Source of the DNA: Exiguobacterium mexicanum
GTDB lineage: Bacteria; Bacillota; Bacilli; Exiguobacteriales; Exiguobacteriaceae
Direction of reading: 5' to 3'
NCBI RefSeq assembly: GCF_005960665.1
Contig: NZ_CP040676.1
Span: forward strand, 1,436,501-1,500,500
DNA length: 64,000 nt
The notes beneath the pieces are model-generated. The model was not told the origin of the DNA, searched no databases, and worked only from the letters and a program-made list of their open reading frames with translations. Within the stretch, counting starts at the first letter, position 1; each line of letters begins with the position of its first letter. Positions 50,103-52,378 of this stretch are shown here, piece by piece. Position numbers and translations under genes: made by a program.

Positions 50103-50486
50103 TCATAGAATCGTATGGGCGATCTCTTCATAAAGAAGTTGATCGATCTCGTTCCGTTCGTTCAAGACGGCGACTTTCGGACGATGCTGTTTCGCTTCCT
50201 CGGCCGTCATTTGGCCGTACGCCATGATGATGACGACATCTCCGACTTGGAAGTGACGGGCCGCTGCACCGTTCAGACAGACGACACCCGAACCTCGTTC
50301 TCCTTTGATGACATACGTCTCGATACGGGCTCCGTTATGGTTGTTCGTGATGTGCACATGTTCGTTTTCCATGATGCCGACCGCGTCCATCAAATCTTCA
50401 TCGATTGTGATCGAGCCGACGTAATGCAAGTTCGCCTCGGTGACGGTCGCTTTGTGTAGTTTCGCGTGCATAAATGTTCGAATCAT
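50103..50486 (-). CDS. panD: Aspartate 1-decarboxylase
   Basis: It makes beta-alanine for pantothenate. The 127-residue precursor self-cleaves at the Gly-Ser in [15 protein letters not shown] to give the pyruvoyl enzyme. Catalytic Tyr and Arg fall in [16 protein letters not shown]. The start [16 protein letters not shown] is canonical; AGAGG is 9 nt before the ATG at 50486. It is the last gene of panBCD. Confidence 0.96.
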
Positions 50487-50491
50487 TGGAT

Positions 50492-51322
50492 TCATCCTCT
50501 CTTCCAAATCACATTATCAATCAAGCGGGCCCGTTCGAACTGCACCGCTACGGCAATCAATAGTTCGGTCGACGCGGAGGTCACCTCGGTCAACGTCGGG
50601 TAGTCTTTGATCTCGACATAGTCGATCGTACTGTTTGGGATGTTCTTCAGACGTTCCTCGAGATGTGCTTTCACATCTTGAATCGTTTTGCCTTGTACAA
50701 GCGCATCCTTTGCTTCAGCCAATGCCCGATTGATGTCACTCGCATCCGCCTTCTCCGTCTCCGACAAATAGACGTTCCGGGACGACTTGGCGAGACCTGA
50801 TTCTTCACGGATGATTGGACAGCGTCGAATCTCGACCGGGACGAAATAGTCACGGACGTATCCTTCGATCAAGGCGACTTGTTGCGCGTCCTTCAAACCA
50901 AAATAAGCACGCGTCGGACGGACCAAGTTGAACAGCTTGGACACGACGGTCAAAACGCCATCGAAATGACCGGGCCGGCTCGCTCCGCAGAGGACATCTG
51001 CGCCGGTACGTACCGTGACGCGAGCCATGTCGAGGGGATACATCGTCTCCGTGTTCGGGTAGAACAAGACGTCGACACCCGCCTCGCGGGCGAGCGCCTC
51101 GTCTCGCTCGAAATCACGCGGATAGCGGTCGAGGTCCTCGTTCGGACCGAACTGGGTCGGGTTGACGAAGATGCTCATGACGACGAGGTCGTTCTCTGAC
51201 TTGGCCGCCTCGACGAGACTGAGGTGCCCTTCATGCAAATAACCCATCGTCGGGACGAAACCGATCGTCCCGGCGTCGTTCAACAGTTTCTGTAAGTCAT
51301 GTGGTGTCGTGACGATGTTCAT
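50492..51322 (-). CDS. panC: Pantothenate synthetase
   Basis: It joins pantoate and beta-alanine using ATP. The 276-residue protein has the adenylate HxGH-type motif [15 protein letters not shown], the pantoate-binding [14 protein letters not shown] and the flexible-loop motif [12 protein letters not shown]. It overlaps panB by 4 nt and ends 5 bp before panD. Confidence 0.97.
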
Positions 51323-52155
51323 GCCTTGCCCCCGTAGAGCGTGTCGAGCAACGACTCATCCATCGTGAACGTGTGCCGTTCGAGCGGGAACGAGCCGTCT
51401 TTCGTCGCCTCGACATAATTGCGGATTGCCGTCGTCGCGACTTCGTTCACATCGGCATACGCCTCGACGAACTTCGGCAGGCGGTCGACGCCATATTTCA
51501 AGATATCGTGATAGACAAGTACTTGGCCATCCACATCGGCACCGGCACCGATGCCGATGACCGGGATTGTAAGTGCCTCGGCAATCTTTTTGGCCAATTG
51601 GTGCGGCACACACTCGAGAACGAGCATCTTCGCGCCAACCCGCTCCGCCTCGAGGCTATCGGCAATCAACTGTTCGGCATCTTCGAGCGATTTGCCTTGT
51701 ACTTTATAACCTTCGAGCACACCGACCGATTGTGGGGTGAGGCCAAGATGGGCCACACACGGCATACCGACTTTCGTCAGACGTTCGATCGTTTCGAGCA
51801 CCTCGCCGGCCCCTTCAAGTTTGATGGCATCGGCCTGACCGTCTTGGAATAACGTCGCGGCCGCTTGAAGCGTGCGGTCGAAGTCGCCATGGTATGTCGC
51901 GAACGGCATGTCGACGACGACGAACGTGTTCCGCGCCCCGCGGCGCACGGCCTTGGCATGGTGGACCATGTCCGAAGTCGTCACCGGGATTGTCGAATCG
52001 TAGCCGAGCACGACCATTCCGAGCGAGTCCCCGACTAAAATGATGTCGACCCCTGCTGCCTCGGCCAGTTTTGCCGACGGATAATCGTAGGCCGTCAACA
52101 TGACCAATTTCTCTTCTTGCTTCATCTTCTTCAATAACGAAGTCATCGTGTGCAT
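51319..52155 (-). CDS. panB: Ketopantoate hydroxymethyltransferase
   Basis: The first committed step of pantothenate synthesis, adding a methylene-THF-derived hydroxymethyl group to ketoisovalerate. The 278-residue barrel has [17 protein letters not shown] with the Mg ligand Asp, [25 protein letters not shown] with the catalytic Glu, and [28 protein letters not shown] is about 6 nt before the ATG at 52155. A 190-nt leader with attenuator-like structure precedes it. Confidence 0.97.
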
Positions 52156-52187
52156 ATGGTTCTCCTCCTAAATGTGGAGACAGGTTA

Positions 52188-52224
52188 CAAAAAACGCCTT
52201 CCTACACGAATGGTAAGAAGGCGC
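52188..52224 (-). terminator. Intrinsic terminator inside the panB leader (attenuator)
   Basis: On the minus strand CGCCTTCTTAC / GTAGGAAGGCG (one G-U) around CATTCGT, followed by TTTTTT, ends about 33 nt before the panB start codon, so panBCD expression requires read-through. Confidence 0.85.
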
Positions 52225-52343
52225 ACGAAAACAATCTCAAGTAGTTGAGTGTCCTTCTGTCCCTGTCAAAATGATCAAGGCAGACAAAAAAATGTAGTGA
52301 CGGTCTGCAGTACTGGTACACTTCGCGAGCGATAGCGTCCGGC
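52225..52343 (-). ncRNA. panBCD leader RNA, candidate metabolite- or pan-motif switch
   Basis: The leader, read on the minus strand, contains a hairpin at 52284-52256 (TCTGCCTTG with CAGGGACAGA) with a single bulged A in its 3' arm. Directly after it, AGAAGGACAC (52258-52249) can pair with GTGCGCCTTCT (52226-52216), which is the 5' arm of the terminator. The two pairings share bases, so hairpin formation would favour termination. A pan RNA motif with bulged adenosines is known upstream of panB in Firmicutes; the match here is inferred from position and shape. Confidence 0.55.
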
Positions 52344-52349
52344 ACATTC

Positions 52350-52378
52350 ATTATAGACCACGAACCCGTTTCCATCAA
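52350..52378 (-). promoter_or_regulatory. Promoter of panBCD
   Basis: TTGATG (52373-52378), exactly 17 nt, TATAAT (52350-52355) on the minus strand. The -35 box overlaps the birA stop codon. This is the best sigma-A-type promoter match in the window. Confidence 0.75.

Follow-up and report, generated by a model that had tools for sequence, protein, structure and literature searches.

A pan RNA in the panBCD leader of Exiguobacterium mexicanum and the proposed use of its purine-rich tail

In a 64 kb stretch of the Exiguobacterium mexicanum genome, to which we refer as the window, the minus-strand genes panB-panC-panD have a leader of about 190 nt. A first-pass annotation had raised the question whether this leader fits the known pan motif or constitutes a different element. 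In the passages devoted to it, the report that introduced the pan motif in 2010 describes this RNA without a known effector (Weinberg et al., 2010, PMC2864571).

A search with the covariance models of Rfam provides the answer. The leader matches RF01749 (pan) with a score of 53.1 bits at a gathering cut-off of 36.2 (E 2.1e-06), and the match encompasses the entire model (positions 1-92 of 92, equivalent to 52341-52253) with its two tandem hairpins. It is the only Rfam match in the window at gathering thresholds. The panBCD leader is a pan RNA, matched over its whole length, and its classification as a new element was rejected in view of this full-length match. The genes identified downstream as panB, panC and panD fit the expectation for the family, and the predicted fold of the leader is better than that of all 200 dinucleotide shuffles (z -3.39). 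The leader resembles the published motif in its two tandem hairpins with two bulged adenosines each, its purine tail and its location upstream of panB, and we find no essential difference between the two; the expression platform is absent from the passage on the motif in the 2010 report (PMC2864571). The features of the locus are compiled in Table 1.

Table 1. Features of the panBCD leader and the downstream genes (window coordinates)
Feature	Position	Strand	Basis
Sigma-A type promoter TTGATG-17-TATAAT	52350..52378	(-)	Promoter scan and same arrangement in 18/18 genus leaders
pan hairpin P1 (CGGACGCTATC...GAAGTGTACC), one bulged A per strand	52315..52341	(-)	RF01749 alignment; pair changes over 29 families
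Possible anti-P2 helix, GCAGAC (52308-52303) with GTCTGC (52285-52280, overlapping the P2 5' arm)	52280..52308	(-)	Invariant in 18/18 genus leaders
pan hairpin P2 (CTGCCTTGATC...GACAGGGACAG), one bulged A per strand	52257..52283	(-)	RF01749 alignment
Purine-rich SD-like tail 3' of P2 (AAGGACAC); first bases are the last RF01749 positions	52249..52256	(-)	RF01749 alignment and sequence
Putative antiterminator around a small hairpin (52249-52236), AGAAGG (52258-52253) pairing with CCTTCT (52221-52216)	52216..52258	(-)	Six pairs invariant in 18/18 genus members
Intrinsic terminator (stem 52224-52194) and T run	52188..52224	(-)	Terminator scan, folding, genus alignment
Element C (CTGTCTCC), invariant in genus between terminator and SD	52176..52183	(-)	Genus alignment
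Shine-Dalgarno (SD) sequence of panB, AGGAGGAGA	52161..52169	(-)	Sequence
panB, 3-methyl-2-oxobutanoate hydroxymethyltransferase	51319..52155	(-)	TIGR00222 above cut-off
panC, pantoate--beta-alanine ligase	50492..51322	(-)	TIGR00018 above cut-off
panD, aspartate 1-decarboxylase	50103..50507	(-)	TIGR00223 above cut-off; TTG start in listed ORF

Of the two hairpins, the first-pass annotation had described P2, which it placed at 52256-52284. This hairpin is real, but it carries two bulged adenosines, one per strand, instead of the single one noted, and as P1 had been missed, only one of the four bulged adenosines of the leader had been described. An adenosine bulges at all four places in 128 of 128 leaders from the host class, a count for which the scripts required an A at three places and left only the 5' bulge of P1 free to vary in the alignment.

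The proposed promoter overlaps the stop codon of birA (ORF 53337-52375) with its -35 element, as had been claimed. It is the sole promoter-like site on the minus strand between 50000 and 54000, but the scan alone provides no evidence since it found two sites on both strands of this region compared to 1.6 expected from shuffles. The arrangement is conserved, with TTGATG or TTGAAT, a 17-base spacer and TATAAT or TATACT located at the equivalent position in 18 of 18 Exiguobacterium leaders. Judged from the -10 box, the transcript would start near 52344, within a few bases of P1, which would place the pan motif at its very 5' end. At the other end of the transcription unit, the true start of panD may be located slightly downstream of the listed TTG codon.

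Exactly one pan RNA is found in each of the 19 Exiguobacterium genomes searched. In an alignment of 18 of these leaders (L017, on a short contig, is left out of all counts), 99.7% of the cells of P1, P2 and the terminator are paired. The check for covariation that had been proposed for the panB leaders of the genus yielded one pair changed on both sides in P1 and another in the terminator, but none in P2, which is invariant, or in the putative antiterminator. Invariance also extends to the pairing between GCAGAC and GTCTGC, a helix that would be able to open P2 and might define a genus-specific third state. In the host class, a pan RNA is detected with an E value of 0.001 or better in 222 of 398 genomes, 205 of them over the cut-off. 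Among the 128 usable leaders from 29 families, which combine the best-scoring matches with a hand-picked spread of families and thus do not constitute a random sample, 99.6% of the cells of P1 are paired, compared to 87.3% upon swapping of the 3' arms, and two-sided changes occur at several positions of this helix. The equivalent values for P2 are 94.4% and 90.9%, with changes that are mostly one-sided; in both cases the script selected the arms that paired best, to the advantage of the own arm, so that the swapped figures provide a lenient contrast. The predicted P1 helix is thus supported by covariation across 29 families. In one genus, all ten genomes examined contain one pan RNA at panB and another at panC-panD; two matches each are also present in the genomes G197 and G326, which are not part of this count. 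A search against plasmids with the leader as query gave no match.

Several loci stood out during this survey. In L030, about 200 bases resembling an insertion in the leader are located between the terminator with a C-like element and the SD of panB. Pan-like leaders beside pan genes are also present in two records titled Flavobacteriales and Chryseobacterium (L154 and L178), which are possibly misbinned or mislabelled. Finally, a metagenome-assembled Deltaproteobacteria genome (L138) that contains no RF01749 match carries a P2-like stretch and a terminator-like hairpin upstream of panB-panC, possibly as a diverged relative.

The terminator claimed at the end of the leader was found by the scan, and the pairs of its stem have probabilities of 0.92-1.0 in the full leader fold. 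Across the class, terminators were detected in at least 120 of 128 leaders, a lower bound since the finder overlooks some, as illustrated by a hairpin resembling a terminator in L086, and a number for which we give no chance rate. Three leaders (L075, L078 and L114) are without terminator and keep solely an arrangement of tail, element C and SD. The alternative pairing with the 5' arm of the terminator, which had likewise been claimed, exists as AGAAGG:CCTTCT, without variation among all 18 genus members; besides the tail, it involves two bases that are shared with P2. The complete invariance of this helix, of the anti-P2 helix and of the pairing between element C and the SD is indicative of constraint but offers no covariation, and we consider the antiterminator plausible.

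To compare the two predicted states, we calculated ensemble energies of transcripts ending just past the 5' arm of the terminator under two alternative constraints, namely an enforced antiterminator or a blocked tail combined with enforced outer pairs of P2. The genus means are -33.8 kcal/mol for the former and -31.6 kcal/mol for the latter (n=18), with differences between the two states ranging from -0.2 to 5.3 kcal/mol, and the corresponding energies of the window's leader are -30.2 and -28.5 kcal/mol. In the unconstrained ensemble, the antiterminator is a minority state in the window's leader, with a mean pair probability of 0.05 compared to a genus mean of 0.19. The proximity of the energies implies that the leader would be sufficiently balanced to switch, although an equilibrium fold is silent on kinetics and on whether switching actually occurs. 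Across the class, pairing between tail and terminator arm beats dinucleotide shuffles in 23 of 28 families, with a mean z of only -0.88, and its lineage-specific covariation is not supported, with 532 of 2000 between-family swaps being as good in a test that used an earlier terminator finder.

A second potential partner of the tail is element C, which is complementary to the SD (TCTCC/GGAGA) and also to the 3' arm of P2. The tails of different families all resemble an SD (AGGGA, AGGAA, AAGGA and similar). For family representatives, the mean pairing of the tail with its own element C is -12.71, compared to -10.54 (sd 0.47) for swapped elements, and none of 5000 permutations was as good. With the SD-like core removed, one of 5000 permutations was as good, and 66 of 5000 in the largest family alone. 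The comparison with shuffles is less pronounced, with tail:C pairing in excess in only 21 of 29 families (mean z -1.26), no excess in families f8, f12, f17 and f22 among others, and the window's genus among the weaker ones. Readable pairs include GGGATGAAACAA with TTGTTTTATC in L020 and GGAGGAAACC with GGTTTCCTC in L036. Uninterrupted complements of at least 9 bases are found at 56 of 127 loci, although 20% of swapped pairs contain them as well. The predicted tail:C pairing thus covaries in a lineage-specific manner in many lineages, and less clearly in the window's genus, where element C has a putative role.

We also investigated how blocking of the tail would alter the predicted accessibility of the SD. 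In 7 of 29 families, accessibility decreases by over 0.1, compared to 3 of 29 for a control block, and in one of 29 it increases by over 0.1; at the family level, the Wilcoxon test gives p values of 0.003 against the free RNA and 0.024 against the control. The effect is large in two of the terminator-less leaders, where accessibility falls from 0.31 to 0.09 in L075 and from 0.57 to 0.09 in L078, but there the control block also lowers it, to 0.15 and 0.11, respectively. In the window's leader, blocking of the tail does not hide the SD (accessibility 0.49 to 0.52). With an effect in 7 of 29 families and 3 of 29 in the control, hiding of the SD as a general rule is unsupported. A translational layer may thus operate in some lineages, where the pairing is conserved, and in the window's leader it is conceivable.

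The relationship between tail and SD is most direct in the simplest loci. In one panB locus (L112), the tail itself stands as the SD of panB, and in all eight loci preceding genes for S components of ECF transporters (ECF-S), a GGAGG-like tail follows directly after P2, in SD position 5-9 nt ahead of the codon at which the ECF-S gene presumably starts. In all three loci with OPT transporters (L351, L353 and L357), a small ORF of 10-25 codons rather than the OPT gene follows the tail, which would act as SD of this ORF. Since the tail takes the place of the SD in the simplest loci, it perhaps originated as an SD that became hidden by the bound motif, which suggests that its uses as antiterminator and as decoy would be later elaborations.

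The ECF-S and OPT genes were encountered beyond the host class, which we approached with a pattern scan of named records; among the matches listed, six of eight genomes subsequently showed a pan match. In two further classes, a pan RNA was found in 124 of 200 genomes (113 over the cut-off) and in 37 of 291. The 114 loci assembled outside the host class (77 + 37) include multi-copy genomes and weak extra matches that were picked deliberately, so that proportions are biased. For each locus, we recorded the first identified gene, defined as the first gene that matches one of seven reference proteins in BLAST or else as a gene named by family search or by eye; five loci on short contigs (L256, L259, L273, L274 and L275) were counted in this way with the position of the motif left unanchored. 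Genes of panB/panC/panD account for 43 loci, DUF2520 proteins for 35, PanS-like proteins for 18, ECF-S proteins for 8, PanF-type symporters for 5 and OPT transporters for 3, with birA-coaX and a phosphatase found once each.

These assignments are based on evidence of different strength. Seven of eight ECF-S proteins were tested and all pass PF12822, and the pan matches preceding them score 38.6-48.7, all over the cut-off. Within the stretch read, the ECF-S gene is followed by coaX, encoding pantothenate kinase, in five of eight cases (L255, L352, L355, L356 and L359), and the coaX of L255 passes NF009847. Of the five PanF-type proteins, the two tested both pass TIGR02119 and the other three resemble them by eye; the scores of the preceding pan matches are 52.7 (L283), 39.7 (L319) and 36.9 (L294), with 35.0 (L323, where a small ORF sits between pan RNA and PanF) and 33.3 (L291) being below the cut-off. 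In case of the PanS-like proteins, NF047939 (PanS) is the best model for the two tested members, which both score below its cut-off (294 and 301 compared to 400), and the other assignments rest on BLAST matches to one of these two. Among the three OPT proteins, the only one tested passes PF03169. The DUF2520/Rossmann protein (L251, L252, L254, L269, L327 and others), possibly a ketopantoate reductase, is often followed by panB or panC. In L313, the pan RNA precedes an apparent broken start of panC and then birA-coaX, and may be the remnant of a lost panC-panD operon. The pan RNA of L271, a strong match with 55.0 bits, is followed by a phosphatase of the lipoprotein e(P4) type (passing TIGR01533), which perhaps salvages phosphorylated precursors outside the cell.

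The distribution of targets bears on what the RNA might sense. In 11 genomes checked for synthesis genes, whose assembly completeness is not given, two with pan RNAs at ECF-S genes (G623 and G724) contain no match to PanB, PanC or PanD, while G520 contains PanC and PanD and no match to PanB, and G744 a PanB-family match and neither PanC nor PanD. The presence of pan RNAs at uptake and kinase genes, even where synthesis genes were not found, points to pantothenate or a later product as effector instead of ketopantoate, pantoate or beta-alanine, and suggests a sensor of the pathway's end product instead of one for an intermediate. Pantoate, which had been listed among the candidate effectors, is made less likely by these loci. 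As coaX is among the targets, we lean towards CoA over pantothenate.

These observations are best explained by a pan RNA that probably turns panBCD off in response to abundant end product, which would be pantothenate or, with higher likelihood, CoA status. In the mechanism we infer, the effector, which may be a small molecule or a protein reporting the end product, would bind to the double-bulge hairpins P1 and P2 and trap the purine tail beside P2, which would permit formation of the terminator and end transcription before panB. Without effector, the tail and the last bases of P2 would pair with the 5' arm of the terminator, thus preventing termination and allowing transcription of panBCD. 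In several other lineages, the second partner of the tail is located just upstream of the actual SD, and the tail may affect translation as well; in the simplest versions the tail would itself act as SD. A more far-reaching and rather speculative extension would view the pan RNA as sensor of CoA status, whose tandem receptor binds CoA or a CoA-loaded protein and jointly controls synthesis, import and phosphorylation of pantothenate by hiding an SD-like tail. This tail would originally have served the gene as ribosome-binding site, before being co-opted as antiterminator and as a decoy for an anti-SD element.

The architecture initially ascribed to the leader holds insofar as hairpins, a possible antiterminator, a terminator and vitamin B5 genes are all present, and it could belong to either a riboswitch or a protein-controlled attenuator. 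Short hairpins with bulged adenosines resemble protein binding sites more than a small-molecule pocket, which counts for an attenuator where a dimeric protein, charged by either CoA or pantothenate, would bind the RNA at its tandem hairpins in a similar way as PyrR or TRAP in their operons, and to which we assign close to an even chance. Both hairpins share the same double-bulge grammar, which is clearest at ECF-type loci (in a comparison of 11 loci, with P2 of L357 in the wrong register). The known PyrR and TRAP attenuators of Gram-positive bacteria similarly employ effector-bound leader hairpins to choose between antiterminator and terminator, and they turn expression off when the product is abundant, a direction that is inferred for the pan RNA. 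They differ in having a cognate RNA-binding protein, whereas no recognised protein of this kind was found among the first identified genes of the 114 loci outside the class, and nothing at these genes points to a regulator that controls its own operon in the manner of pyr. We know of no cognate RNA-binding protein for pan RNAs. The discoverers of the motif favoured protein binding, and in the passages concerned they argued from its structural simplicity and dimeric layout when they proposed a dimeric protein-binding motif (Weinberg et al., 2010, PMC2864571).

Direct binding of pantothenate, CoA or a CoA precursor to P1 and P2 in a true riboswitch appears possible but unlikely. It would account for targets that span synthesis, uptake and pantothenate kinase and for the lack of a regulator gene among the first identified genes. 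The TPP and FMN riboswitches similarly combine a single RNA at biosynthesis and uptake genes with terminators or SD masking, to which the pan RNA would add genes of the first kinase. The pan motif differs from these riboswitches in consisting of two short hairpins, for which ligand binding is hypothetical, and it is the small and simple nature of these hairpins, with no obvious pocket, and the preference of the discoverers that argue against direct binding. The role of a CoA sensor would be vacant, as the sections on CoA in two sources state that it had no validated riboswitch as of 2022 (PMC10043782, PMC9971707).

We regard it as improbable that the effector is a biosynthetic intermediate such as ketopantoate, pantoate or beta-alanine. 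Such an effector would fit the prevalence of panB/panC/panD or DUF2520 genes behind most of the 114 loci and the 18 loci preceding PanS-like genes, as NCBIfam names PanS a ketopantoate/pantoate/pantothenate transporter, but not the pan RNAs at ECF-S(-coaX) and PanF-type genes or those in the two genomes with no match to the synthesis enzymes. Equally hard to credit is a constitutive leader, with hairpins providing RNA stability and a terminator setting a fixed level, since, despite the missing covariation of the antiterminator, the recurrence of pan RNAs at both halves of the split operon, their presence at unrelated transporter genes and the covariation of tail and element C all speak against it.

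The pan family itself is already known, and the wider list of targets and the logic of the tail are what is carried forward here. Where they name it, two transcriptome studies list the motif without studying it (PMC4342826, PMC4634765), and a reconstruction of vitamin metabolism in gut bacteria names TPP, FMN, THF and B12 riboswitches in the relevant part and reports panD-panC-panS operons (PMC6593275). The terms 'riboswitch' and 'RNA motif' are absent from the main text of a 2024 paper on CoA in B. subtilis (PMC11487621), and no pan term is contained in a study on regulons of cis-regulatory RNAs (PMC3766115). Our search, which covered mostly open texts and thus does not establish absence from print, found nothing on a pan effector or on pan RNAs at transporter genes.

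With PanS-like, PanF-type, ECF-S, coaX and OPT genes added to the targets, the search for the effector can concentrate on pantothenate and products beyond it. These genes lend themselves to tests, with the ECF-S type loci, where the tail stands in the place of the SD, offering very small test RNAs. As the consulted sections of the sources cited above describe no validated riboswitch for CoA, an RNA that is found at genes for synthesis and import of its precursor would be a good place to look for one. The OPT transporters found behind pan RNAs (L351, L353 and L357) in turn become candidate importers of pantothenate-related compounds.
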